A program made the translations under genes and the position numbers. Below the pieces are notes generated by a model. That model searched no databases, was not told the origin of the DNA, and was given only the letters and a program-made list of their open reading frames with translations. Shown here piece after piece: positions 1,344 to 32,540 of a stretch of DNA of 64,000 bases (the first letter of the stretch is position 1; each line of letters begins with the position of its first letter). The stretch is from contig NZ_FYEH01000015.1 of NCBI RefSeq assembly GCF_900187945.1, forward strand, positions 1-64,000, read 5' to 3'. This stretch comes from Arboricoccus pini (GTDB taxonomy: Bacteria; Pseudomonadota; Alphaproteobacteria; Geminicoccales; Geminicoccaceae).

Positions 1344-3581
1344 ATGCTAGACGAGACCTTGGCGTCTGCGGCGTCCTCCGCCTCCTGCCCGACCCGGGCA
1401 GCGATCGCGACGGAACTGCTGGCGGAAGGCCACGCCCTGATCCAGGCCGCGTGCCCCTTGGAGGGTATCGAGGTGCTGCGGCGCGCACTGGCCCTCGACC
1501 CCACCTCGCTGCAGGCCCATGCGGCCCTGGGCCAGGTCTTGACGGACCAGGGGGATCTGCCCGGTGCCTTTGCCGTCTACGAGGCGGCACTGGCCCTCGA
1601 TCCCGACCATTACCTCATGACCCTGAAGCGCGCCGACCTCCTCGTGGCGGCGGGCTTCAAGGCCGAGGCCCTGGCAGCTTACGACCGGGCCTTGGCGATC
1701 GCACCGCGCCTGCCGGCGGTGCTCTCCAACCGGGGCAACGTGCTGCGCCAGCTCGGGCGTTTCGAGGCAGCCCTGGCCGATCATGACGAGGCGGTGGCCG
1801 GCGATCCCCTGGATGGCGGTCTCTGGTGCAACCGGGCCGCCGTGCTGGGCGATCTCGGGCACCTCGATGAGGCGCTGGCCTCCTACGACCGGGCGCTTGC
1901 CTGCCGACCCGACCATCCCGTCATCCTGACCAGCCGCGGCTTCATCCTGGGGCGCCTCGGCCGGTTTAAGGAGGCACTGGACTTGCACGAGCGCGCTCTG
2001 GCGCTTGATCCCGGCTATGCCGTGGCGTGGCGCAACCTGGCCGTGACACTGAACGCGCTCAAGCGCTTTCAGGAAGCGGCGGCCGCCTATCTGAAGGCCC
2101 TGGAGCTCAAGCCCGGCGATCCCGACATCCTGTTCGGTCTGGCCAATCTCTTCATGCTGCTTGAGCGGCGCGAGGCCGCCTATTTCCTCTACGAACGTCT
2201 GGTCAAGGTGGCCCCGGACTTTCCGTTCGCGCAGGGGCTCTTCTTCGATGCCCGACTGCTGATCGGCAATTGGCAGGACCATGACGCCCATGTGGCGAGG
2301 CTCGAGGCAGGACTCGATGCCGCTCGGGACGTCGTCCTGCCTTTCGATGCGATGACCTGGAATGGCGATCCAGCGCGCGAGCTGGCGCTGGCATCGGCTT
2401 ATGTCGCCCGCCATTTCCCTGCCCAGCCCGCTCTGTGGCGCGGTGAACGCTACGGTCATGAGAGACTGAGGATCGCTTATGTGGGGCATGACTTCCATGA
2501 ACACGTGACACCGCATCTCATGGCAGGCGTGTTCGAGTCGCACGACCGCGCGCGCTTTGAGACCTTCGCGATCTCACAGGGGCAAAAGCGCGATCAGCCG
2601 ATGCGCCGCCGCCTCGAGGGCGCCTTCGATCATTTTCTCGACCTGGCGCACCTGACGGCGGGCCAGGTCGCCTCCTTGATGCGGGCGCATGAGATCGACA
2701 TCGCGATCGACCTCAAGGGGCATACGCACGCGAGCGAATGGAGCGTCATGGCGCATCGGCCAGCCCCGCTGCAGGTCAATTTCCTGGCCTTCCCCGGCAC
2801 GACCGGCGCGCCCTATCTGGATTATATCCTGGCCGACGCGTTCATCATTCCCGAGGCGAACCGGCGCTTCTTCAGTGAGAAGGTCGTCCATCTGCCGATC
2901 TCTTATCAGCCCAACGACCGGCATCGGGTCATCAGCCGGGTCGTGCCGACGCGCAAGGCGGCCGGACTGCCACCCACGGGATTCGTCTTTTGCAGCTTCA
3001 ACAAGTCGACCAAGATCAACCCCGCGATCTTCGACATCTGGATGCGCCTGCTGCGCGCTGTCGAGGGCAGCGTGCTCTGGCTGCTGGCCGGCGGGTCCGT
3101 CCACGCAGACCATATGCGGTGCGAGGCTGAGACCAGGGGCGTGGACGCGAACCGGCTGGTCTTCGCGCCGAGCGTGCCACCGGCCGACCATCTGGCGCGC
3201 ATGCGGCTGGCCGATCTCTTCCTCGACACGCTGCCCTTCAATGCGCATACGACGGCCAGCGACGCGCTCTGGGCGGGATTGCCGCTTTTGACCTGTGCCG
3301 GCCGGACCTTCGCCGCCCGTGCGGGCGGCAGCATCGTGCACGCCGCCGGCCTGCCCGAGCTCGTTACCCACTCGCTGGCCGCGTACGAGGAGGTGGCCCG
3401 CGCGCTGGCGCTTGATCCTGCACGATGCGCGGCGCTGAAGGAGCGCCTTGAACACGCCCGTTCGGCCTCGCCCTTGTTCGATACAGTCAGGTTCACCGCC
3501 GCCATCGAGCGGGCCTTCTCGATGATGCAGGCCAGGCACGAGGCCGGCCTGCCTCCCGCTCATTTCAGCGTGCCCGGCTAG
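1344..3581 (+). CDS. TPR-containing protein O-GlcNAc transferase, SPINDLY/GT41 type
   Basis: A 745-residue cytosolic glycosyltransferase that would move GlcNAc (or another sugar) from a nucleotide sugar onto Ser/Thr of proteins. Residues about 15-300 form seven or eight 34-residue TPR units (for example LGRFEAALADHDEAVAGDP). The rest is the GT41 domain: YVGHDFHEH with the conserved His, AFPGTTGAPYLDYILAD, FCSFNKSTKINP with the donor-binding Lys near residue 556, and NAHTTASDALWAGLPLLT near the end. All four blocks match the order in eukaryotic OGT. ATG 1344 is preferred over an in-frame start at 1257 because TAAGG precedes it and the upstream residues lack domain character. Bacterial members are often linked to flagellin or surface glycosylation, but no such genes are nearby. 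It is monocistronic. Confidence 0.9.
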   Translation: MLDETLASAASSASCPTRAAIATELLAEGHALIQAACPLEGIEVLRRALALDPTSLQAHAALGQVLTDQGDLPGAFAVYEAALALDPDHYLMTLKRADLLVAAGFKAEALAAYDRALAIAPRLPAVLSNRGNVLRQLGRFEAALADHDEAVAGDPLDGGLWCNRAAVLGDLGHLDEALASYDRALACRPDHPVILTSRGFILGRLGRFKEALDLHERALALDPGYAVAWRNLAVTLNALKRFQEAAAAYLKALELKPGDPDILFGLANLFMLLERREAAYFLYERLVKVAPDFPFAQGLFFDARLLIGNWQDHDAHVARLEAGLDAARDVVLPFDAMTWNGDPARELALASAYVARHFPAQPALWRGERYGHERLRIAYVGHDFHEHVTPHLMAGVFESHDRARFETFAISQGQKRDQPMRRRLEGAFDHFLDLAHLTAGQVASLMRAHEIDIAIDLKGHTHASEWSVMAHRPAPLQVNFLAFPGTTGAPYLDYILADAFIIPEANRRFFSEKVVHLPISYQPNDRHRVISRVVPTRKAAGLPPTGFVFCSFNKSTKINPAIFDIWMRLLRAVEGSVLWLLAGGSVHADHMRCEAETRGVDANRLVFAPSVPPADHLARMRLADLFLDTLPFNAHTTASDALWAGLPLLTCAGRTFAARAGGSIVHAAGLPELVTHSLAAYEEVARALALDPARCAALKERLEHARSASPLFDTVRFTAAIERAFSMMQARHEAGLPPAHFSVPG

Positions 3582-3888
3582 AATAGACGGTCTGGCCGGC
3601 GCTCGCTCCACCACCGTTCAGCACCTGCCAACCCGTGTCACGGCATGCGGCGACAAAGAGGGGTGGTCACTCCGCAGCATTTGGCCGCGGCCGATGGCGA
3701 TCCGCCAAAGCCGCCATCGCAACATTTGCGGGTGCTGGCCGGCCGTCATTGCATGGGGGCGCGAGAAAATGCCGCCGCGACGCCCCCCTCCAGCTTGCGT
3801 GCAAGACTATCCGGTAACCAGCGTCGCCTGCTTGCGCCAAACGGGCAATGTGCGGCTGCAGCTTCGAACACCCGGTGCGCCGGCACGT
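3582..3888. other. Convergent intergenic region, nothing recognised
   Basis: About 307 bases lie between the end of the O-GlcNAc transferase gene and the end of the minus-strand MFS gene. Both genes must terminate here, but I could not find a strong GC-rich hairpin followed by a T run. The open frames inside have compositions typical of non-coding GC-rich DNA. Confidence 0.4.
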
Positions 3889-5109
3889 TCAGCGGCGAGC
3901 ACGGAACTCGGTCGCGTAGAAGCCCAGCGCCACCAGTCCCAGCCCCACGCCGATCGTTGCCGTGAGCGGCCAGCCGCCCGCCTCGTAGGAGAGCGTGGCC
4001 GCCATCGAACCGACGGCGCCGCAGAGAAAGACCACCATCATGTAGACGGCGTTCAGCCGCCCCCTGATCTCCACGCCCAGCTCATAGACCGCCCGTTGGC
4101 TCAGGATCTGGTTGGTCTGCACAGCGGCGTCGAGAACGACGGCCGCGAAGGCGAGTGCCAGGATGGCACCGCTCAGCCCCGCCCAGCCGGCCAGGCCGAA
4201 GGCGGCGGCGAGCGTCGCCATGGCGATGCCGACCGCAGGCCTGGTATAGCCTCGATCGGCGAGGCGCCCGGCTATGGGTGCCATGAGCGCGCCGCCGGCA
4301 CCGGCCAGCGCGAAGAGCGCAATACCGCGCTGGCCAAAGCCTAGCGAATGCGAAAGGACAAGGGGCACTGCCGTCCAGAAGAGATTGAAGCCGGCGAACA
4401 TCAGGCCCTGATAGGCTGTGCGCCGCCGCAGCTCAGGCAGCGTGAGGAAGAGGCGCACAAGCGAGAGGAGGATCTGGCCATAATGCATGCCCGCCTGCGG
4501 CCGTCGCGTCGGCAGCATCCGCATGAGAATCAGGGCCAAGCCCAGCATGATGAGGGCCGAGACGACGAAGATACCCCGCCAGCCGACCAAGGCCGCGACG
4601 GAGCTGGAGAATGGCCTTGCCAGCATGATCCCGGTCAACAGGCCCGCCATCACGTTGCCGATGACGCGACCGCGCTGGCTGGGCGGCGTCAGATGCGAGG
4701 CGAGCGGGACCAGGATCTGCGCGCCGACCGAACAGAACCCGACCATGAAGGAGCCCGCAAAGAAAATCCAGGCATTGGAGGAGAACGCCACGATGAGCGA
4801 GCCCACGATGGCACCGCCGACGATGACCAGGATCAGCCGGCGATTTTCGACAAGATCAGCCAGCGACACCAGGAAGACAAGGCCGGCCCCATAACCAAGC
4901 TGGGTGACGGTGACGACGAGGCCGGCCAGTGCCGCGTGTAGACCGAGCTCAGGGCCGATCAACTCGATCAGAGGCTGGGCGTAATAGATGTTGGCGACCA
5001 TCGCCCCGCAGGCAAGCGCGAAGACGAAGGTCATGAGCGCGGAGGGTCCGCGTTCCGCCGGATCGTCAAGAACGGGCCGCCCGCCTGCGATCGGTTGAGC
5101 GTCTGCCAT
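3889..5109 (-). CDS. MFS transporter, DHA1 drug:H+ antiporter type
   Basis: A 406-residue inner-membrane protein with about twelve hydrophobic helices. The N-terminal NIYYAQPLIE motif marks the YnfM/AraJ-like branch of the major facilitator superfamily, which exports drugs, sugars or amino-acid derivatives in exchange for protons. The loop 'LADLVENRRLI' corresponds to MFS motif A. ATG 5109 is preferred over an upstream TTG because GAGGG lies 8 bases before it. It starts 20 bases after the aldo/keto reductase gene ends on the same strand, so the two are probably cotranscribed. A cargo related to the aldehyde or ketone handled by that enzyme is only an inference. Confidence 0.85.
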   Translation of the reverse strand: MADAQPIAGGRPVLDDPAERGPSALMTFVFALACGAMVANIYYAQPLIELIGPELGLHAALAGLVVTVTQLGYGAGLVFLVSLADLVENRRLILVIVGGAIVGSLIVAFSSNAWIFFAGSFMVGFCSVGAQILVPLASHLTPPSQRGRVIGNVMAGLLTGIMLARPFSSSVAALVGWRGIFVVSALIMLGLALILMRMLPTRRPQAGMHYGQILLSLVRLFLTLPELRRRTAYQGLMFAGFNLFWTAVPLVLSHSLGFGQRGIALFALAGAGGALMAPIAGRLADRGYTRPAVGIAMATLAAAFGLAGWAGLSGAILALAFAAVVLDAAVQTNQILSQRAVYELGVEIRGRLNAVYMMVVFLCGAVGSMAATLSYEAGGWPLTATIGVGLGLVALGFYATEFRARR

Positions 5110-23629: not shown

Positions 23630-24946
23630 CTAGAACTCCAGCAGATTGTCGCGGAAGTGGTCGTGCGCCCATTCACGACGCATCAACCCTTGACGCTGCA
23701 AGGCGGGCACCAAGCCGTCGGTGATTTCGGACAGTGAGCGGCGGCTGGTATTGGACTGCGTGACGAGAAAGCCATCGCCGCCCACTTCCGCCATCGCCTC
23801 CCCCATGCGCCGTGCGATCTGCTCGGGCGTTCCGACAAGTTCCAGCGACCGATCGCCGGTATCCTCGTTCATCGCCTGACGCAAAGTGCGGTTGCCGGCC
23901 TTTTGCTTGAACTCATCAAGCGATTGCTGGTGACCATTGGTCTTAAGCTCGAGCGCGCTGACCGGCGTGTCCAGATCCATCTTACCAAAATCGATATTGG
24001 TGATCTTGCCGAGAAAGGCCAGGCGCTGCTCCACCTTCTCCGACTGGCGCTCCAGGCGCCGCTGCCGCAAACGCTGCGCCTCCTCCTCGGTCTCGCCGAT
24101 CGTGGGCGAGATCAGGAAGAGTACCTTGATCGTGTCGGGATCACGGCCCTGCGCCTTGGCCCGCGCCCTCACGTCCTCGCGATAGGCCTTCATGGCCTCG
24201 ATGCCGTAGGTGGCGGCGATGATCGTGTCGGCGTGACGCGAGGCGAATTGCCGCCCACGCGGCGAGCCGCCGGCCTGGGCGATCACCGGACGCCCCTGCA
24301 CGCAAGGCCCGGAATTGAGAGGCCCACGCGACTTGTAGTACTGGCCAGCATAATCGATGGCATGCACCTTCGCCGGATCGATGAGCACGCCGCTCTCGGG
24401 ATCGGCGACGATGGCGCCGGGCTCGAAGGAATCCCAGAGCCCGTTCACGACCTCCATATATTCATCGGCCATGTCGTAGCGCTGATCGTGCGGCGGCATG
24501 CCATCCAGGCCGAAATTGCGGGCGGCGAAGTCCGAACTGCCGGTCACCATGTTCCAGCCGGCCCGGCCCTGCGAGACCTGATCCAGGGTCGCCACGAGAC
24601 GAGCCAGGAGATAGGGCGGATAGGCGAAGGTCGCCAGCGTCGGCACGATGCCGATCCGCCGCGTGGCGGCCATCATCAGGCTGGCCACCACCGAGGGATC
24701 CTGGCGCGGCACTGAGAGGCCATTCTTCAGATAGATGTCGCGCGACCCACCGAAACTCTCGCCCACATAGCTCGAATCCTCGAGCAGCACGTAGTCGAAG
24801 CAGGCCTTCTCCAGGAGCTTGGCGACGTCGACGAAGAAATCGGGGACCATCCACTCCTTGCCGATATTGCCCGACCAGGGCTCACCCCAGGCCTGCACGC
24901 TGGAGCCGGCCAGAAACCAGCCGAGATGGAAACGCTTGTCCGCCAT
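23630..24946 (-). CDS. LLM-class FMN-dependent monooxygenase (NtaA/SnaA/DszA type)
   Basis: A 438-residue TIM-barrel monooxygenase that uses reduced FMN from a partner reductase to oxidise C-S, C-N or C-H bonds. The family signatures are LATFAYPPYLLARLVATLDQ, GRAGWNMVTG with the FMN-binding region and VIAQAGGSPRGR. ATG 24946 is chosen because AAGGAG lies 8 bases before it, and the upstream extension is shadow. Substrates in this family include nitrilotriacetate, EDTA, dibenzothiophene sulfone and dimethyl sulfide; none can be chosen here. It is divergent from a small conserved gene and shares a promoter motif with the TetR region at 27.7 kb. Confidence 0.9.
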   Translation of the reverse strand: MADKRFHLGWFLAGSSVQAWGEPWSGNIGKEWMVPDFFVDVAKLLEKACFDYVLLEDSSYVGESFGGSRDIYLKNGLSVPRQDPSVVASLMMAATRRIGIVPTLATFAYPPYLLARLVATLDQVSQGRAGWNMVTGSSDFAARNFGLDGMPPHDQRYDMADEYMEVVNGLWDSFEPGAIVADPESGVLIDPAKVHAIDYAGQYYKSRGPLNSGPCVQGRPVIAQAGGSPRGRQFASRHADTIIAATYGIEAMKAYREDVRARAKAQGRDPDTIKVLFLISPTIGETEEEAQRLRQRRLERQSEKVEQRLAFLGKITNIDFGKMDLDTPVSALELKTNGHQQSLDEFKQKAGNRTLRQAMNEDTGDRSLELVGTPEQIARRMGEAMAEVGGDGFLVTQSNTSRRSLSEITDGLVPALQRQGLMRREWAHDHFRDNLLEF

Positions 24947-25030
24947 CGAAATCGCTCCTTCGCTGCCGGCCGCCCGCGCTCTTCCAGGAAAAGCAGCTTG
25001 ACGACCTGTGATCAGCCTCGATAGTGGATT

Positions 25031-25045
25031 TAGAGTCAACTCCAA
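25031..25045 (-). promoter_or_regulatory. Promoter motif shared with the TetR operator region
   Basis: Read on the minus strand this is TTGGAGTTGACTCTA, 85-100 bases upstream of the LLM monooxygenase start. A near-identical run (TGGAGTTGACGCTA, one mismatch in 14) forms the right half of the palindrome upstream of the deacetylase gene at 27723-27736. Both contain TTGAC, which could act as the -35 element in the direction of the downstream gene, with the TGGAGTT half-site overlapping it. TetR control is inferred. Confidence 0.4.
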
Positions 25046-25084
25046 GTCAAGTGTCATCGCCGCGCTTCGACCGAAGGGAAACCG

Positions 25085-25540
25085 ATGTCAGATCATGACG
25101 CCGTCGTCGCGCACGTTGCGGCCACACGCTTTCCATTCGCCGGCCAGACCACATGGCCCGAGGATTATGTGACGATCGTCAATGTCCCCGAGCCCAAGCG
25201 CGCCATCCCGTTCGCCGACGGCTATCACTATCCCGACATCGCGATCGTCGATTCGACCGGCCGCCTGCGCGAGGCGGGCGAAGTGCTGATGACCGTCGAT
25301 CCGGCGGCGACCGCATCGCTCAAGGCCGTCTCCGAAGCGACCGACACCGACACGCCGACCCATGTCCGCCATTTCTTCGTCTACGTTCCGGCGGGCATGG
25401 AGGCGGCGGCGCAAAAGCTCCTGGACGATGCCGCCATTTCCTATGCCGGCGTCCGCAGCTTCGTCTGTACGGCTGAGGGCAGCATCAAGATCCTGCCCTT
25501 CGTCACCGCCGGCAGCCAATTCGACAACCAGGCGACCTGA
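25085..25540 (+). CDS. Conserved hypothetical protein (151 aa)
   Basis: A 151-residue soluble protein without signal peptide or membrane segments and with natural coding character throughout (VTIVNVPEPKRAIPFADGYHYPDIAIVD). I do not recognise a domain. The aspartate-rich middle and the alternating hydrophobic pattern suggest a compact alpha/beta fold. GAAGGG precedes the ATG. It is divergent from the LLM monooxygenase (138-base gap) and ends just before the convergent class II aldolase. It may be an accessory or stress protein of the same catabolic block, but no function should be assigned. Confidence 0.7.
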   Translation: MSDHDAVVAHVAATRFPFAGQTTWPEDYVTIVNVPEPKRAIPFADGYHYPDIAIVDSTGRLREAGEVLMTVDPAATASLKAVSEATDTDTPTHVRHFFVYVPAGMEAAAQKLLDDAAISYAGVRSFVCTAEGSIKILPFVTAGSQFDNQAT

Positions 25541-25555
25541 CGCAGCCGCGCTGCC

Positions 25556-26329
25556 TCAATCCTTGTAGTCGGGCTGCTCGCGGTCGAGCTTGCGGCGCAG
25601 CGCCTGCCAGGGCAGCCAGCCCTTGCTGGCATCGCTGGTGAACTGAAGGCTGGCCCGGGCAACCGTCGATTCGCCCGGCATGACCAGCTTCACGCCACCC
25701 GACTGGGCGGCGAGCTGGATACGGCAGGCCTGCTCCAGATAATACATCCAGTAGAACGCTTCGGCGATCGTGCGGCCGACGGTGAGGAGACCATGGTTGC
25801 GCAGGATCAGGCAGGGCTTGTCGCCGAGGTCCCTGGCCAGCCGCTCGCGCTCGGAGAGATTGTCGCTGTCAGCAATCCCCTCGTAATCGTGGATCGCGAC
25901 CTTGCCGTGGAACTCCATGCTCATCTGGTTCAAGGGCAATATGCCCTGATCCTGCGCCGCCACCGCCATCCCAGCCAAAGTATGGGTGTGCATGACGCAA
26001 TGCGCATCGGGACGGCCCAGGTGAATGGCCGAATGGATGACGAAGCCGGCGGGGTTGACCGGCCAGCTGGTCTCTTGGGCCGGCTCGCCGCCCGCATCGA
26101 CGACAACCAGCGAGCTTGCGGTGATTTCCTCGAAGAGAAGCCCGTAGGGATTGACGAGAAAGCGGTGATCAGGCCCCGGCAATCGCGCCGAAAGATGCGT
26201 GTAGACGAGGTCGGTCATGCCGAAGATCGCGAAGAGCCGATAGGCGGCCGCCAGGTCTTCGCGCAGCTCGATCTCGGTCGGGCGACGGTCGGGATCGGGT
26301 TTTCTCGGGGGCTTCAGCAACGGCTTCAT
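25556..26329 (-). CDS. Class II aldolase/adducin family protein
   Basis: A 257-residue member of the fuculose-phosphate aldolase family. The zinc ligands are visible as HTH in CVMHTHTLAGM and a third His in LILRNHGLLTVG. ATG 26329 is preferred because it overlaps the preceding nitroreductase stop as ATGA, which is typical for coupled genes; a TTG ten codons upstream is the alternative. Many family members cleave 4-carbon or larger hydroxy-keto phosphates, while others decarboxylate. It is the last gene of the TetR / nitroreductase / aldolase operon. Since the nitroreductase is interrupted, its own expression may depend on reinitiation at the overlap. Confidence 0.87.
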   Translation of the reverse strand: MKPLLKPPRKPDPDRRPTEIELREDLAAAYRLFAIFGMTDLVYTHLSARLPGPDHRFLVNPYGLLFEEITASSLVVVDAGGEPAQETSWPVNPAGFVIHSAIHLGRPDAHCVMHTHTLAGMAVAAQDQGILPLNQMSMEFHGKVAIHDYEGIADSDNLSERERLARDLGDKPCLILRNHGLLTVGRTIAEAFYWMYYLEQACRIQLAAQSGGVKLVMPGESTVARASLQFTSDASKGWLPWQALRRKLDREQPDYKD

Positions 26330-27015
26330 CCTTCCATTTCGTCGAGGGGCATGCGCCAAGGGGTGGCAAAGGGGTCGTCACGCTCGCTCCGGACCCGGTT
26401 GATGGGCGCCGTTGGGTCAAGGTAGCCCACCGCCATGCCGCAGACGAGATCCCAGTCGGGCGGAACACCGAGGAAGGTCTTCACCGCACCCGCATGCATG
26501 GCCCAGTCGGCCTGCGGGCAGGTATCGATCCCGGCCTCACGCAACAACAGCATGACGGTCTACAGGAAGATACCCAGATCCAACCATTGATAGCGACCGA
26601 AAGCGGCCGGCATCAGGAAGAAAAGGCCTTGCGGCGCGCCGAAAAACTGGAAGTTCTCGTCGATCCAGGCCGCCCGCGCCGCCCGATCATCTCGGGCGAT
26701 CCCGAGTGCCCCGTAGAGAAGTGCGCCGTTCCGCAGCCGGCGCTCCTGGTAGGTCGCCGGCAGGCTTGCGGGATAGAAGTCATGCGCCAGGGGCTCACCC
26801 GCGGGCTCGGCGACGCGACGCTCGCGCATCAATGCCTTGAGCATCGCCAGCCGTTCGCCCGCGACGAATTCGACCGACCAGGGCTGCAGATTGCCGCCCG
26901 AGGGTGCGCGTGCCGCCTGTCGCACGATCGACCGCAGCCTCTCACCCTCGACAGGCTGGTCGAGGAAGGCGCGCACCGAGTGGCGGCCATTGACGGCGGC
27001 GGTCACGCTGCTCAT
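26326..27015 (-). pseudogene. Nitroreductase family gene interrupted by an in-frame amber codon
   Basis: From ATG 27015 (overlapping the TetR stop) the frame encodes a nitroreductase: NGRHSVRAFLDQPVEGERL at the start and ARAPSGGNLQPWSVEFV with the FMN-binding SGGNxQPW motif. At 26560-26562 a TAG occurs after YQWLDLGIFL. The same frame then continues without any shift as TVMLLLREAGIDTCPQ to the end at 26326, which is the expected C-terminal half including the substrate pocket. A single CAG to TAG change explains everything. FMN-dependent reduction of nitro groups, quinones or ene bonds would be lost unless the stop is read through or is a sequencing error. Both ends keep their four-base overlaps, so the break is probably recent. 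Confidence 0.85.
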
Positions 27016-27653
27016 GCGCTGCCGCCCTTCCCGTTCCGGACCAAGCCGCGCAGTATCACCGCGAGATGGGCCGAGCCAGCCTTCAGCATGTCTTCCGCCG
27101 CCAGAGTCTCCGAGGCGATGAAGCGGCTGAAATTCCATGTCGTGATACCGACGATGAGGTCGGCCAGGACGACGGGATCCACGTCGGGTGCGAGCCGGCC
27201 GCGCTCCTGATAGGTCCTAAGCAGCGTCACGTATTGCCGCTTGATCAAGAGGTTCAAGCGCCCGCCCGCCCTTTGCGCCTTGCCGGCCGGCTCCAGATAT
27301 TGCGCCGCCAGGATCGCGCGCCAGCATCCCTTGGAGAGGTGCTGCAACGCCTGCTCCGCCAGCAGGCGTTCGAAGGCGTTGATGCCGATAAAGGGATCAT
27401 CTGGCGGGTTGCGCACCATGCGGCGCCTGGCCGGTAGGGCCGTGCGCACATGCCGGAGCGCCAGCTCCATCAAAAGATTGGGTTTGGTGGCAAAGTAATT
27501 ATAGACGGTAGCGGGTGCCACCGAGGCAATCTCGGCGATCTCCTCGATATGCGTCGCCTCATATCCATTGCGGGCGAAGAGCAGGTCGGCTGCGTCCAGG
27601 ACCTGTGCCACACGCCTTTGTCGATGCTTCGCTCGTAGATTGACCCCAGCCAT
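27012..27653 (-). CDS. TetR/AcrR-family transcriptional regulator
   Basis: A 213-residue repressor with the N-terminal helix-turn-helix at about residues 15-60 (IEEIAEIASVAPATVYNYF, the TetR recognition pattern) and a helical ligand domain. ATG 27653 fits the family start; an upstream in-frame start at 27767 would cross the operator. It is the first gene of an operon with the nitroreductase (4-base overlap) and class II aldolase, and is divergent from the CE4 deacetylase. A palindrome in the 198-base divergent region is the likely autoregulatory operator. The inducer is probably a substrate of the adjacent catabolic genes. Confidence 0.9.
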   Translation of the reverse strand: MAGVNLRAKHRQRRVAQVLDAADLLFARNGYEATHIEEIAEIASVAPATVYNYFATKPNLLMELALRHVRTALPARRRMVRNPPDDPFIGINAFERLLAEQALQHLSKGCWRAILAAQYLEPAGKAQRAGGRLNLLIKRQYVTLLRTYQERGRLAPDVDPVVLADLIVGITTWNFSRFIASETLAAEDMLKAGSAHLAVILRGLVRNGKGGSA

Positions 27654-27711
27654 GCCTTCACCCTTGGTCTTGCCCGTGCCGGCGGTCAGCCGCCGATCTA
27701 TATTTCTACTG

Positions 27712-27729
27712 AACTCCAAATATGGAGTT
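27712..27729. promoter_or_regulatory. Palindromic operator candidate for the TetR regulator
   Basis: AACTCCA-AATA-TGGAGTT is a 7+4+7 inverted repeat with perfect arms, centred in the divergent region between the TetR gene and the deacetylase operon. It has the size and symmetry expected for a TetR dimer. The right arm continues into TTGAC, a plausible -35 for the rightward genes, so binding would block that promoter. Half of it recurs upstream of the LLM monooxygenase at 25031-25045. Confidence 0.6.
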
Positions 27730-27851
27730 GACGCTAGAGCTATGCGCCGCGCAGAGTATGAGTACAAGGCGTGATCGGATGGGATCGAGACGACCGTCCG
27801 TGGATCTTCGAATGTCGCCTTCCCTACTCGCTATTTGCTTGAAGAGTGCGC

Positions 27852-28769
27852 ATGAGTCTAAGGCTGATCGACAATCCGCCGCCCTGGCCGAATGGCGCCC
27901 GCTGCGCCGTCTGCTTCTCCTTCGATTTCGACGCGGAAAGTCTGCTCCACCTCTATTATCCGGCCGATTCGCGCCGCCGCATCAGCCTTTCCTCGTCCCT
28001 CCGCTATGGCGCGAACGTCGCGATCCCCCGCCTGGTCCAGATCTGGCGCCATTTCGGCATGCGCCAGACGGTCTTTGTGCCGGGTTGGTGCATCGAGACC
28101 TATCCCAAGGCGATCGAAGCACTCCTGGCCGACGGCCATGAGATCGCCCACCACGGCTGGCTGCACGAACGGCCAAATCAGCTCTCGCGCGACGACGAGG
28201 GTCTCGTTCTCATCCGCGGCATCGAGGCCATCATCGCCGCGACAGGGGCGCGCCCTAAGGGCTATCGCTGTCCGTCGGGTGCGTTTTCCGAATACACGCT
28301 CGACCTGCTGCTGGCCGAGAACTTCGCCTACGACGCCTCGCTTGGCGGCGACGACGTTCCCTATCGCATCGAAGGCGAGACGGGCTCGCTCCTGGAGCTG
28401 CCATCGGATCACGCGCTCGATGACTGGCCGCAATATGTCAACATGAAGGAATTCAACATGGGCATGACGATCCAGTCGCCGGCACGGGCGATGGACGTCT
28501 TTCGTGCCGAATTCGATGCGGCGCACGCCCATGGCGGCCTCTGGGCGGCGATCTGGCATCCCTTCGTCTCCGGCCGGCTCGCCAGGGCCGAGGCCATGGT
28601 CGAGCTCATCCAGCACATGCAGGCGAAGGGTGGTGTCTGGTTCGCGACGCTAGCCGAGATCGCGGCCCATATCGAGGAGGTCACCGCCAAGGGCCTCTGG
28701 ACGCCGCGTCGCGAGACCCTCCCCTTCTGGCCGGAACCGGTGCCGCAACTCGTCGTGCCGAGCCGCTAG
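27852..28769 (+). CDS. Polysaccharide deacetylase (CE4/NodB) family amidase
   Basis: A 305-residue metal-dependent amide hydrolase without signal peptide, so it acts in the cytosol. The NodB motifs are visible: FSFDFDAES (catalytic and metal Asp), HEIAHHGWLHE (the His-x3-His metal pair) and YRCPSGAFS. Cytosolic CE4 proteins of this size include HpPgdA-like and PuuE-like (allantoinase) enzymes that open cyclic or small amides rather than polysaccharides. ATG 27852 is preferred; a GTG two codons earlier is possible. It heads an operon with an ABC importer and an M20 carbamoylase-like hydrolase, which supports a role in breaking down an imported cyclic amide or ureide. Confidence 0.85.
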   Translation: MSLRLIDNPPPWPNGARCAVCFSFDFDAESLLHLYYPADSRRRISLSSSLRYGANVAIPRLVQIWRHFGMRQTVFVPGWCIETYPKAIEALLADGHEIAHHGWLHERPNQLSRDDEGLVLIRGIEAIIAATGARPKGYRCPSGAFSEYTLDLLLAENFAYDASLGGDDVPYRIEGETGSLLELPSDHALDDWPQYVNMKEFNMGMTIQSPARAMDVFRAEFDAAHAHGGLWAAIWHPFVSGRLARAEAMVELIQHMQAKGGVWFATLAEIAAHIEEVTAKGLWTPRRETLPFWPEPVPQLVVPSR

Positions 28770-28810
28770 CAATCTTTCCTCGTCGCACCCTGGCCCTTAG
28801 GAGCTGGCCC

Positions 28811-29644
28811 ATGAACTCTCGTTGCCGTGGATGGCTGGCCGCAGCCCTCCTTGTGTCGCTCTGTCCGCCGGTCGCCGACGCGGCGTCGCTGCCGGCCGAG
28901 ATCGCCTCCAGCAAGACCCTGCGCCTGGCACTCGAGCCCAGCTACCCGCCGCTCGAGATGCGCGATACCAAGACCAACGAGTTGACGGGATTCGACGTCG
29001 AACTGGCAACGGCGATCGCCAGCGATCTCGGCCTCAAGATCGAATGGCAGACGAGCGCCTTCGAACAGCTCACGCCATCGCTGCAATCCGGTCGCGCCGA
29101 CATGATCATGAGCGGCTTCTACGACATTCCCAAGCGCCGGGGCATGTTCGACTTCGTCGATTATCTGAAGGCGGGCGCGCAGTTCTACACGCTGGCCGCG
29201 AGCAAGGAGCTGAAGACGGTCAGCGACCTCTGCGGCAAGACGGTGACGACCACGCGCGGCACCAGCTTCCCCGAAACGATCAAGGCGCTGAGCGACAAGA
29301 GTTGTGCCGGCAAGGAGCCGATCACCGTCATCGTCGACACCGATCTTGGCCAGCAATTGAGCAATCTCAAGCAGGGACGCGCCGATGCCGCCGTACAGGG
29401 CCTGGAGGCCGTGCCGACGATCGTCGCCCAGGATCCCGGCATGTACCGGCCGATGGGCGAGCCCTTCTCCTCGACCCTCATGGGCATGGCGTTCAGCAAG
29501 GATAATCCGGGCCTGCGCGACGCCTTCCAGGAGGGCCTGAAGAAGGTCATCGCCGATGGCCGCTATGACGCCCTGATCGCCAAATGGAAGCTCGACCTCA
29601 GCAGCTACAAGGAGGCCACCGTCAACCTCGGTCCGGCGCCATGA
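28811..29644 (+). CDS. Amino-acid-type ABC transporter substrate-binding protein
   Basis: A 277-residue periplasmic protein of the HisJ/GlnH (SBP family 3) type. A signal peptide ends near VADA-AS (about residue 24). The mature part shows LRLALEPSYPPLEM, NELTGFDVELATAIAS and DMIMSGFYDIPKRR, typical of polar amino-acid binders. TTAGGAG lies 8 bases before the ATG. The permease gene starts inside its stop codon (ATGA), so the transporter components are translationally coupled. The ligand is unknown. The upstream deacetylase and downstream M20 hydrolase suggest an amide- or carbamoyl-bearing compound. Confidence 0.92.
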   Translation: MNSRCRGWLAAALLVSLCPPVADAASLPAEIASSKTLRLALEPSYPPLEMRDTKTNELTGFDVELATAIASDLGLKIEWQTSAFEQLTPSLQSGRADMIMSGFYDIPKRRGMFDFVDYLKAGAQFYTLAASKELKTVSDLCGKTVTTTRGTSFPETIKALSDKSCAGKEPITVIVDTDLGQQLSNLKQGRADAAVQGLEAVPTIVAQDPGMYRPMGEPFSSTLMGMAFSKDNPGLRDAFQEGLKKVIADGRYDALIAKWKLDLSSYKEATVNLGPAP

Positions 29645-30537
29645 CGCAGGCGGAGGGCCGCGCCGCGGCGGGCCTGTGCGTCTCGGATGGCGATGTCGGC
29701 ATCGACGATACCGACATCGCGCGCCTGCGCCATGTCCGGCCGCGCCATTATGGCCGCATCCTGGCGGTGCTGCTGATCGTCCTCTTCGCGGGCTTTCTCA
29801 TCAAATCCTTCGCGGAGGGCCAGATCGACTGGCCGGAGGTCGGCAATTACCTCACCTGGCCGACCATCCTCATGGGCGTCGTCAACACCGTCTGGCTCTC
29901 GATCGCCAGCATGGCGATCGGCATCGCCCTGGGTGTTGCCTGCGCCATCGCCCGCAACTCGCCCAACCCCGTCGTGCGCAGCGCCGCGATCTTCTATGCT
30001 TGGTTCTTTCGTGGCACGCCCGTCATCCTCCAGCTCCTGATCTGGTTCAACCTGGCTCTGGTCTTTCCCCGCCTGGGTATCGCCGGTGTCTGGGACGTCA
30101 GGACGGTGACGGTCATCACGCCGGCCGTGGCGGCACTCTTGGGCTTCGGTCTGAACGAGGGCGCCTATGTCTCCGAGATCGTCCGGGCCGGCCTCCTCTC
30201 CGTCGATCGCGGCCAGTACGAGGCAGCCCGCTCGATCGGCATGCGCGAAATGAAGGCGCTCCGGCGTATCATCCTGCCGCAGGCCATGCGCGTCGTCGTG
30301 CCACCGCTCGGCAACGAGTTCATAGGCCTCATCAAGATGACCTCGCTTGCAAGCATCGTCGGCTTCAACGACGTGCTCCGCAGCGCCCAGGACGTCTATT
30401 ACACCAACACCAAGGTGATCGAGCTCCTGATTGTGGCCGCCATATGGTATCTCATCGTCGTCTCCGTCCTCTCCTTCGGCCAGGGCTTCATCGAGCGCCG
30501 CTTCGGCCGTGGCTTTAGCGGGAGCGGCCGGCGTTGA
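29641..30537 (+). CDS. Amino-acid-type ABC transporter permease
   Basis: A 298-residue inner-membrane permease of the HisM/GlnP family. ATG 29641 overlaps the binding-protein stop. About 50 hydrophilic N-terminal residues precede the first helix. The signature EAARSIGMREMKALRRI (EAA loop contacting the ATPase) and FFRGTPVILQLLIWF are visible. There is only one permease gene, so the transporter probably works as a permease homodimer, unlike systems with two different permeases. The ATPase gene follows with a TTGA overlap. Confidence 0.92.
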   Translation: MTQAEGRAAAGLCVSDGDVGIDDTDIARLRHVRPRHYGRILAVLLIVLFAGFLIKSFAEGQIDWPEVGNYLTWPTILMGVVNTVWLSIASMAIGIALGVACAIARNSPNPVVRSAAIFYAWFFRGTPVILQLLIWFNLALVFPRLGIAGVWDVRTVTVITPAVAALLGFGLNEGAYVSEIVRAGLLSVDRGQYEAARSIGMREMKALRRIILPQAMRVVVPPLGNEFIGLIKMTSLASIVGFNDVLRSAQDVYYTNTKVIELLIVAAIWYLIVVSVLSFGQGFIERRFGRGFSGSGRR

Positions 30538-31307
30538 CGGCGCCGATCGTCGCCGCCCGCAAGGTGGGCAAGCTCTTTGGCGAGATGGCGGCCCTCGTCG
30601 ACGTGACGCTGGACGTCATGCCAAAGGAGGTCGTCTGCATCATCGGCCCCTCCGGTTCGGGCAAGACGACGTTCCTGCGCTGCATCAACCAGCTCGAGCG
30701 CATTAATTCCGGTGCGCTCTGGGTGAACGGTGAACTCAACGGCTTTCGCCGCCAAGGCGATTTGTTGCACCCGCTAGGCGAGGCCGAGATCGCCCGCCAG
30801 CGACGCGTGACGGGCATGGTCTTTCAGCGCTTCAATCTCTTTCCTCACATGACCGCCCTCGAGAACATCATCGAGGGGCCAGTGCACGTCCTGAGGCGGC
30901 CACCAGACGAGGCGCGCGAGGAAGCCAGAGCCCTGTTGGCAAGGGTGGGGCTGGCCGACAAGCAAAGCAGTTTTCCAGCCGAACTTTCCGGCGGCCAGCA
31001 GCAGCGTGTGGCGATCGCCCGCTCGCTGGCGATGCGCCCGAAGCTCATGCTCTTCGACGAGCCGACCTCGGCCCTCGATCCCGAGCTGGTGGGCGAGGTC
31101 CTGGCCGTCATGCGCGACCTTGCAAGCAGCGGCATGACCATGATCGTCGTTACGCACGAGCTGGAATTCGCCCGTGACGTTGGCGACCGTATCGTCTTCA
31201 TGGACAAAGGCCGCGTCGTCGAGACCGGCCCTGCCGCCCAGTTGATGGCAAGCCCACGGGCTGCCCGCACCCAGGAGTTCCTCCGTCGGGTCCTGACCCG
31301 CGGCTGA
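30534..31307 (+). CDS. Amino-acid-type ABC transporter ATP-binding protein
   Basis: A 257-residue ATPase of the GlnQ/HisP type. Walker A is GPSGSGKTT, the Q-loop is MVFQRFNLFPHMTALENI, the ABC signature is LSGGQQQR and Walker B is LMLFDEPTSALD, followed by the H-loop VVTHEL. Translation appears to start at TTG 30534, overlapping the permease stop as TTGA. It completes a one-operon importer with the binding protein and permease and is followed by the M20 hydrolase gene after about 27 bases. Confidence 0.93.
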   Translation: MTAPIVAARKVGKLFGEMAALVDVTLDVMPKEVVCIIGPSGSGKTTFLRCINQLERINSGALWVNGELNGFRRQGDLLHPLGEAEIARQRRVTGMVFQRFNLFPHMTALENIIEGPVHVLRRPPDEAREEARALLARVGLADKQSSFPAELSGGQQQRVAIARSLAMRPKLMLFDEPTSALDPELVGEVLAVMRDLASSGMTMIVVTHELEFARDVGDRIVFMDKGRVVETGPAAQLMASPRAARTQEFLRRVLTRG

Positions 31308-31334
31308 ACCTTTCAAAATCCGGAGATTTTGTCG

Positions 31335-32540
31335 ATGCCCGTCGTCGTCGATACCGCGCGTTTCCTGGCCGATCTGCATGAGCTTCGCCAGATCGGCACG
31401 TATAAGACCGGCGTGCACCGGCCGACCTATTCCAAGGAGGACATGGACTCCCGTCGCTGGCTGATGACGAAGATGGCCGAGATCGGCCTTGAGCCCGAGA
31501 TGGACGGAATCGGCAACGTCATCGGCCGCCACCCCGGCCCGGGCCCGCATCTCCTGGTCGGCAGTCATATCGAGACACAGAACCAGGCGGGCTGGCTGGA
31601 CGGCGCGCTGGGCGTCGTCGCGGCACTGGCCCTGGCACGGAGCGGCCTGCCCGTCGATGTGGCCGCCTATGTCGACGAGGAGGGCCATTTCGATGTCGGC
31701 TTCCTCGGCAGCCGCTCCTTGATCGGCGATCTCACCGAGGCCGATCTCGACAAAGCGCGCAACCGGACCGACGGGACGCCGCTTCGCCAGGCGCTGCGGG
31801 CGGCGGGCCTCTCGGGAGAACCCCGCTTCCGCCTCGATCCCACGCGCTACAAGGGCGCCTACGAGTTGCATATCGAGCAGGGCACGCAGCTGGAGCGCGA
31901 GGGGCTGCGCGCCGGGGTCGTCACCGGCATCGTCGCGATCTGGCAGTTCGCCATCCGTATCGTCGGCCAGCAGGATCACGCCGGGGGCACGACGATGGCC
32001 GAGCGCAAGGATGCGGGTCTGGCGGCGGTTCGCCTCCTGGCAGCGATCGATCGGGAGTTTCCCAAGGTCTGCGGCCGGCGCTCCACCTGGACCACGGGTC
32101 GGATCACGCTCAGCCCCGGCGCGCCCTCGATCATCCCGGGCGAGGCGAACATCCTCTTCCAGTTCCGCGACGTCGAGATGGCCGTTCTCGAGCGCATGGA
32201 GGAGTGCCTCGTCCGCCTCGTTCAGGAGAGCAATCGCAACGAGCGGACCGAGGCCTTCCTCGAGGTCATCGACAAGGCCATCCCGGCCGTCTGCGACCCC
32301 GCCATGATGACGGCCCTCGAGGCCGCCGCCCGCGAGCATGCCCCGGACGCCTGGCAGTTCATGCCAAGCGGCGCCGGGCATGATTCGCAAAATCTCGCCC
32401 GCATCATGCCGGCCGCCATGCTGTTCACCCCGAGTATCGGCGGGATCAGCCATCACTGGGCCGAGGACACCAAGGAAGAGGATCTGGCGCTCTGCTGCCA
32501 GATCCTGGCGACGGCGGCCGAACGGTTCCTGGCTGGCTGA
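31335..32540 (+). CDS. M20-family Zn-dependent hydrolase (carbamoylase / allantoate amidohydrolase-like)
   Basis: A 401-residue amidase of the HyuC/AllC group, which splits N-carbamoyl or ureido groups from amino acids. The two-metal site is visible: His in VGSHIETQ (H78), Asp in GWLDGALG, Glu pair in YVDEEGH, His in ELHIEQG and a late His in GGISHHWAE. ATG 31335 has GGAG 9 bases upstream; a TTG two codons earlier is possible. It ends the operon begun by the CE4 deacetylase and the ABC importer. Together these could import a cyclic or acylated ureide, open it, and release ammonia and CO2. The specific substrate is inference. Confidence 0.87.
   Translation: MPVVVDTARFLADLHELRQIGTYKTGVHRPTYSKEDMDSRRWLMTKMAEIGLEPEMDGIGNVIGRHPGPGPHLLVGSHIETQNQAGWLDGALGVVAALALARSGLPVDVAAYVDEEGHFDVGFLGSRSLIGDLTEADLDKARNRTDGTPLRQALRAAGLSGEPRFRLDPTRYKGAYELHIEQGTQLEREGLRAGVVTGIVAIWQFAIRIVGQQDHAGGTTMAERKDAGLAAVRLLAAIDREFPKVCGRRSTWTTGRITLSPGAPSIIPGEANILFQFRDVEMAVLERMEECLVRLVQESNRNERTEAFLEVIDKAIPAVCDPAMMTALEAAAREHAPDAWQFMPSGAGHDSQNLARIMPAAMLFTPSIGGISHHWAEDTKEEDLALCCQILATAAERFLAG

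Follow-up and report, generated by a model that had tools for sequence, protein, structure and literature searches.

Background

The rut gene set, which serves uracil use, is controlled by the TetR-family regulator RutR through a palindromic operator, and QacR is a TetR-type repressor that binds as neighboring dimers. Here we compare these systems with a group of genes in Arboricoccus pini (Geminicoccaceae), studied in a 64,000-nucleotide stretch of its genome (assembly GCF_900187945.1, contig NZ_FYEH01000015.1, positions 1 to 64,000 of the forward strand) that we call the window. At about 23.6-32.5 kb, the gene for a TetR-family regulator lies between two sites carrying the same short inverted repeat, or dyad: site A, ahead of an LLM flavin monooxygenase gene, and site B, ahead of an operon encoding a polysaccharide-deacetylase-fold hydrolase, an amino-acid-type importer and an M20 hydrolase. 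We consider it highly probable that one TetR-family repressor controls these genes as a local catabolic regulon; its dimers would bind the dyad TRGAGTnnACTCYA at two operators.

The shared string in the window and genome

The initial annotation had pointed to a string, TGGAGTTGACNCTA, shared by the promoter regions of the LLM and deacetylase-like genes, with TTGAC directed at the downstream gene in both. Exact copies are present at 25031-25044 (minus strand, TGGAGTTGACTCTA) and 27723-27736 (plus strand, TGGAGTTGACGCTA). At site A, TTGAC does point toward the LLM gene, and at site B toward the deacetylase-like gene. A search for further copies, which the same annotation had suggested, returned only these two exact matches in the genome (4,065,473 bases in 28 contigs, 4.07 Mb), both at the locus, with none for the reversed-pattern control. 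At up to two mismatches the string had 31 genome matches against 50 in the reversed control, so loose matches are noise and only exact or near-exact sites are meaningful. The sole one-mismatch match (G000:C12:58471) lies inside a 459-residue open reading frame.

Judged within the window alone, the repeat is moderately unusual and constitutes modest evidence. Within the 64 kb, 963 gapped 13-mers of the same shape recur. Among the 434 intergenic bases of the region at 23.6-32.6 kb this is the only one shared; when those segments were shuffled by mononucleotide 2000 times, 30 shuffles contained any shared 13-mer. The strong evidence for a site common to the two predicted operators is the comparison across orthologous loci.

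A conserved dyad in the orthologous loci

The TetR-family regulator of the window (27012-27653, minus strand) has a TetR_N domain above its gathering score (45.3 bits against a cut-off of 24). A scan of one genome per species gave ten loci at 52-65% TetR identity, among 29 relatives, from Ancylobacter, a Xanthobacteraceae metagenome-assembled genome, Albimonas, Acuticoccus, Acidisoma and Sinirhodobacter. Plasmid orthologues came from Shinella, Sinorhizobium meliloti pSymA, S. medicae pSymA and Kozakia; 33 plasmid records had a TetR match, of which seven were fetched at first. Counts below refer to 12 loci, eight chromosomal (L039-L046) and four on plasmids (L068-L071), whose TetR orthologues show 45-63% identity to the window TetR. 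Two further loci, L047 and L048 (TetR 52-53%), are short, with contigs cut, and less similar, and were left out of these counts.

The 14-bp dyad TRGAGTnnACTCYA is present in all 12 loci, mostly before the same genes. Six loci (L039, L040, L042, L068, L069 and L070) have a perfect dyad, TGGAGT-nn-ACTCCA, located 15-44 bases behind the matched tetR stretch and ahead of the next operon. With at most one mismatch from TRGAGTNNACTCYA (R or Y allowed at bases 2 and 13) we found 21 sites in the 239 kb of the 12 loci; the same search gave 0, 0, 0 and 1 sites in four dinucleotide shuffles and three in 14 control loci (273 kb). Relaxing the search to two mismatches gave 40 sites, 39 of them outside homologous genes, where "outside" means outside the matched genes, the flanks are partly annotated and a few sites (L044:20257, L069:1192) have no assigned target. 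These sites precede the deacetylase-like gene, an operon with ADI-like or LLM genes, the small gene hyp151 or an EamA-hyp151 pair. Of the two sites in the window, site A, which reads TAGAGTCAACTCCA on the plus strand, has no mismatch to the degenerate dyad, and site B has one. Intergenic regions flanking tetR contain the dyad in the window and in 11 of the 12 loci, and the excluded locus L048 has a two-mismatch copy 74 bp upstream of tetR.

Several observations connect the dyad with this particular regulator. Two of the three dyads in control loci belong to Streptosporangium: in both L066 and L067 the dyad precedes, by 51 bp, the matched stretch of a gene whose TetR product resembles the window TetR only in its DNA-binding end and has the same recognition helix, VYNYF. 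The upstream site in L066 is TGGAGTCGACTCCA, and a weaker second copy lies 18 bp further on (L066:9950-9981; L067:9950-9963). In three loci whose TetR is 31-36% identical, a variant dyad, TGAAGTCAACTTCA, precedes the matched tetR stretch by 33-39 bp; these copies (L049:9965, L050:6857 and L051:9962) each stand before the divergent TetR gene of their own locus. Among 24 loci, a nearby dyad with at most two mismatches occurs in 6 of 13 whose TetR has the VYNYF helix and in none of 11 with another helix, a tally made after the sites had been seen and on loci that are partly related. Seven loci that have a homologue of the deacetylase-like or LLM gene and lack a TetR orthologue contain no dyad at one mismatch or fewer, and their best matches within 400 bp upstream have three to five mismatches. 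Comparison of the loci demonstrates the dyad, its conservation, its place and its co-occurrence with this TetR. On that basis we think it very probable that the TetR whose gene lies between the two sites uses the shared motif as its operator. Among the published-text matches listed for the operator strings, none concerned a bacterial operator.

A number of observations weigh against this interpretation. The Kozakia locus (L071) has no site within two mismatches adjoining tetR, its site being before the ADI-like gene, and L047, with a 53% identical TetR, has no dyad. The right half of operator B is degraded, with four of the six outer pairs retained. In the A. pini genome, the dyad at up to two mismatches occurs in 33 places against 46 for the control and is not enriched; given the absence of loose-match enrichment over the reversed control, we claim no wider regulon. 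In eight related whole genomes, exact dyads occur in three places against four for the reversed control (once in four of the eight), which is not above chance. The exact TRGAGTNNACTCYA is found in three of these eight, once each, and always as the copy behind tetR, so that in related genomes the location of the predicted site is telling and its count is not. Finally, the LLM gene is tied to this TetR in only one other locus, L046, the sole independent case.

Membership of the proposed regulon

The proposal of the initial annotation that one TetR regulon covers both promoters, from about 23.6 to 32.5 kb, is supported by the comparison, in that the same dyad accompanies orthologous tetR genes and precedes the same genes elsewhere. 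Membership of the LLM gene (23630-24946, minus strand) is supported by Acidisoma L046, where the order is tetR, dyad (two mismatches), LLM (69% identity), M20 (75%), hyp151, dyad, deacetylase-like gene (76%) and importer, so that tetR, operator, LLM, M20 and hyp151 form one block. A second, distant LLM gene in L046 (28%; 3397-4653) has a one-mismatch dyad (at 3397) about 140 bp upstream.

That all of these enzymes act on one compound, as the initial annotation proposed, is an inference. It could be that TetR controls both sites and yet serves no single pathway, the LLM enzyme having its own substrate beside an importer-hydrolase operon for another. We regard this as unlikely but as deserving attention. 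Of the 12 orthologous loci, 11 lack the LLM gene and have in its place genes for an ADI-like protein, a larger M20-type protein (M20big), a TPP enzyme or an aminotransferase, and the nitroreductase-family gene of the window (26326-27015, minus strand) is interrupted. Against it, LLM, M20 and hyp151 form one block in L046 and the importer and deacetylase-like genes follow under the same dyad. The initial annotation had counted the nitroreductase as a working member. The gene is there, but its frame contains a TAG at 26560-26562 where five translated orthologues are open, so it may not work; the stop is either a broken gene or a sequencing error. Two other genes of the compared loci, the S. meliloti aldolase (L069:13188-13932) and the S. 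medicae aminotransferase (L070:11983-13165), each align as two separate pieces, suggestive of frame breaks.

We also sought the replacement enzymes elsewhere in the A. pini genome. There was no match to the ADI-like gene, although an empty answer is weak for ADI, and only a weak 30% M20 match to M20big; both are thus probably not distant members of the regulon in this genome.

Geometry of the predicted operators, and promoters

The predicted recognition unit is the 14-bp dyad TGGAGTnnACTCCA, centered on the TG of TTGAC. The initial annotation had described site B as half of an 18-base palindrome. Such a palindrome exists at 27712-27729 (AACTCCAAATATGGAGTT, 8 of 9 pairs), but it does not appear to be the recognition unit, nor site B its half. 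Read against the other loci, the palindrome is the junction of two tandem predicted operators, 4 bp apart and 18 bp center to center: operator B (27723-27736, plus strand), between tetR and the deacetylase-like gene, and a weaker copy upstream (TCTACTGAACTCCA, 27705-27718, plus strand) with a perfect inner half and three mismatches in its outer half.

That TetR instead reads the 18-bp palindrome, AACTCCA-N4-TGGAGTT, as one operator, with site A a fortuitous match or half-site and only tetR and the deacetylase-like gene under control, seems to us very improbable. Deacetylase promoters do show partial conservation of its arms (ACTCYA-N4-TRGAGT): in 10 of 12 the upstream copy has no more than one mismatch in its inner half, and in all 12 its outer half has at least two. 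The exact AACTCYANNNNTRGAGTT occurs in 4 of the 12 loci and in none of the 14 controls. The perfect dyads behind tetR in six loci, site A and L046:14578 nevertheless stand without the 18-bp arms, and the tandem arrangement resolves into two fair 14-bp sites at 18-bp spacing in L041 (17516/17534) and L045 (9903/9921), as also in L066.

We can likewise give little credence to the shared sequence being a strong sigma-70 -35 region or the site of another common regulator. In its favor, TTGAC, a -35 box, does not vary among the deacetylase promoters. Against it, conservation extends beyond TTGAC to TRGAG on the upstream side and YA on the downstream side, copies away from that promoter (TGGAGTCCACTCCA, TGGAGTTAACTCCA and TGGAGCAAACTCCA) keep the dyad and not TTGAC, and the dyad tracks VYNYF-helix TetRs in unrelated settings and does not occur in homologous operons that lack this TetR.

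TTGAC[AG] is at the center of the downstream dyad copy in all 12 deacetylase promoters compared. In the window the putative -35 box of the deacetylase promoter is TTGACG (27728-27733, plus strand), inside operator B. Several deacetylase promoters have plausible -10 sequences 17 bases on; the corresponding window hexamer, GCAGAG, is not among these. A -35 box inside the operator fits repression by blocking of the -35 region, and the same overlap may be the reason for the decayed right half of the dyad at this promoter. At site A, the sequence suggests a -35 box TTGACT for the LLM promoter (25034-25039, minus strand), likewise inside the operator. A promoter-like element facing the other way, TTGACG-16-GATAGT (24998-25025, plus strand; a consensus match only), points toward hyp151 and ends 6 bases before operator A begins. 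Operator A lies between these divergent genes, and one TetR dimer at site A could block both promoters.

We infer that TetR is the binding protein and acts by repression rather than activation. Its dimers would bind the 14-bp dyad. At operator B and the weaker tandem copy they would cover the -35 box that serves the deacetylase-importer-M20 operon; at operator A they would cover the LLM -35 box and, for the divergent hyp151, the start region of its promoter. Since operator B lies 69 bp before tetR, the tetR-nitroreductase-aldolase genes are probably autoregulated too. Release of TetR by a small inducer, which is probably either the compound imported or an early product, would turn on the four transcription units together.

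The hyp151 gene

The start of hyp151 (25085-25540, plus strand) lies 40 bp past site A, and the initial annotation had overlooked this divergent gene facing operator A. It is a member of the predicted regulon in most loci and occurs as two tandem copies in L043, L044 and L045. The protein has no Pfam or NCBIfam match at an E value of 0.001. A structural model (mean predicted local distance difference test score 86) shows likeness to YaeQ, PaqCI and NucC, which are PD-(D/E)XK proteins, and its top-ranking matches are mostly of that type. The fold matches are weak, the best Foldseek E value being 4e-3 (NucC) and none at or below 0.001, and the VIA Z score is 7.9 at most, with a root-mean-square deviation of 2.8 over 107 residues; a Z below 8 can reflect a common arrangement. 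With the positions of the (D/E)-X-K motif assigned by us, Asp 51 and Glu 66 are invariant in our alignment. The third position is not lysine: it is glutamate in all 13 relatives and leucine in the window copy. We treat a PD-(D/E)XK-like, nuclease-type fold as a lead from modeling. Such a fold would be predicted here despite the proposed co-regulation with catabolic genes.

Distribution of the locus

No TetR orthologue was found in 60 relatives within the family, where the best non-self matches covering the protein are about 27-29% identical. The region at 27012-32540 has its TetR orthologues scattered over other orders and plasmids. Because of this distribution, horizontal spread of the region appears likely.

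Enzymes and probable chemistry

The label "deacetylase" of the initial annotation does not suit the hydrolase (27846-28769, plus strand), which belongs with the HpPgdA, cyclic imidase and PuuE group and is nearer to enzymes that open cyclic-imide and allantoin rings than to those that deacetylate polysaccharides. It matches HpPgdA (3qbu, E value 1e-28) and PuuE (3cl6, 6e-19). The alignment with HpPgdA, its residue correspondence read by eye, shows a corresponding Asp pair, an HG-x2-HE metal motif and a late His-Pro. The report on HpPgdA gives the residue roles for Asp12, Asp14, His86, His90 and His247, and describes a small, covered active site and a lack of activity on typical sugar substrates (PMC3084791). 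Work on the fungal cyclic imidase HxnM describes it as 64% identical to a Pseudomonas putida cyclic imide hydrolase and structurally HpPgdA-like (PMC9304392).

The importer that follows comprises a solute-binding protein (28811-29644), a permease (29641-30537) and an ATPase (30534-31307), all on the plus strand and of the amino-acid-type ABC family. The M20 protein (31335-32540, plus strand) is above the cut-off for the hydantoinase/carbamoylase family (TIGR01879, 258.9 bits against 204). On the other side of tetR, a class II aldolase/adducin family protein (25556-26329, minus strand) scores 350.7 bits for PRK07044.1 (cut-off 207). The imidase-like protein, the M20 hydantoinase/carbamoylase and the amino-acid-type importer point to a small cyclic amide or ureide as the pathway substrate, which the LLM enzyme would oxidize. 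This amino compound would resemble a cyclic imide, a hydantoin or a ureide, and would also be ring-opened and hydrolyzed. Alternatively the substrate could be a guanidino compound, because ADI-like and agmatinase genes adjoin the homologues elsewhere.

Homologues of the deacetylase-like gene occur in other settings. In L087, L089 and L090 they are part of agmatinase-SDR-SDR-deacetylase gene strings. An Aminobacter plasmid (L086:5861-14507) encodes a 4-hydroxyphenylacetate 3-hydroxylase-type protein, a deacetylase-like protein, an ArgE/DapE deacylase, flavin reductases and an amino-acid importer. In A. pini, the gene sets behind sites A and B look like a breakdown pathway for a small nitrogen compound. 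Judged by search listings, the literature on this gene set and on imidases held no account of such a cluster.

As a tentative generalization, which is possible though we would not yet call it probable, a TetR subfamily may recognize TRGAGTnnACTCYA, in many cases through two dimers spaced 18 bp apart, and govern a module that is mobile, has been reshuffled repeatedly and serves an undescribed small amino compound of the cyclic-imide, ureide or guanidino type. The module would combine a PuuE/imidase-like hydrolase and, in most cases, an amino-acid importer, an M20 amidase and the nuclease-fold (possibly non-nuclease) protein hyp151 with front-end enzymes that can replace one another: LLM in A. 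pini and Acidisoma, ADI-like ones elsewhere.

The comparison turns a guess from one sequence into a defined predicted operator and regulon, with the operator geometry corrected. By the conserved site, genes of a dozen alphaproteobacterial loci, those of the Sinorhizobium pSymA plasmids among them, can be assigned to the regulon, and hyp151 stands out as a candidate co-regulated protein without known function. The identity of the TetR inducer would point to the missing substrate.

Comparison with known systems

The hydrolase is related in fold to PuuE allantoinase but falls below the cut-off of that family (TIGR03212, 89.9 bits against 424.6). The LLM protein is above the cut-off for the NtaA/DmoA family (TIGR03860, 395.1 bits against 279.7) and matches DszA (5tlc, E value 6e-70), so that it resembles the FMN monooxygenases NtaA, DmoA and DszA, but these scores assign it to none of EDTA, NTA, DBT-sulfone and dimethyl-sulfide; profile scans of ten window proteins named no flavin reductase family among them.

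The locus resembles the rut system in having a TetR-family regulator, an LLM monooxygenase, a nitroreductase-type gene and a palindromic operator of similar length. It differs in that general profile scans of the window proteins revealed no rutB-D set. Assignment of the two proteins to RutR and RutA was rejected, the regulator scoring 29.7 bits for TIGR03613 (cut-off 368), with an operator that is also different, and the monooxygenase 66.6 bits for TIGR03612 (cut-off 498.3). In its operator arrangement the locus is reminiscent of QacR-type repressors, with two neighboring dyads that are here 14 bp each, separated by 4 bp and 18 bp apart center to center, and at which two TetR dimers would putatively bind together.

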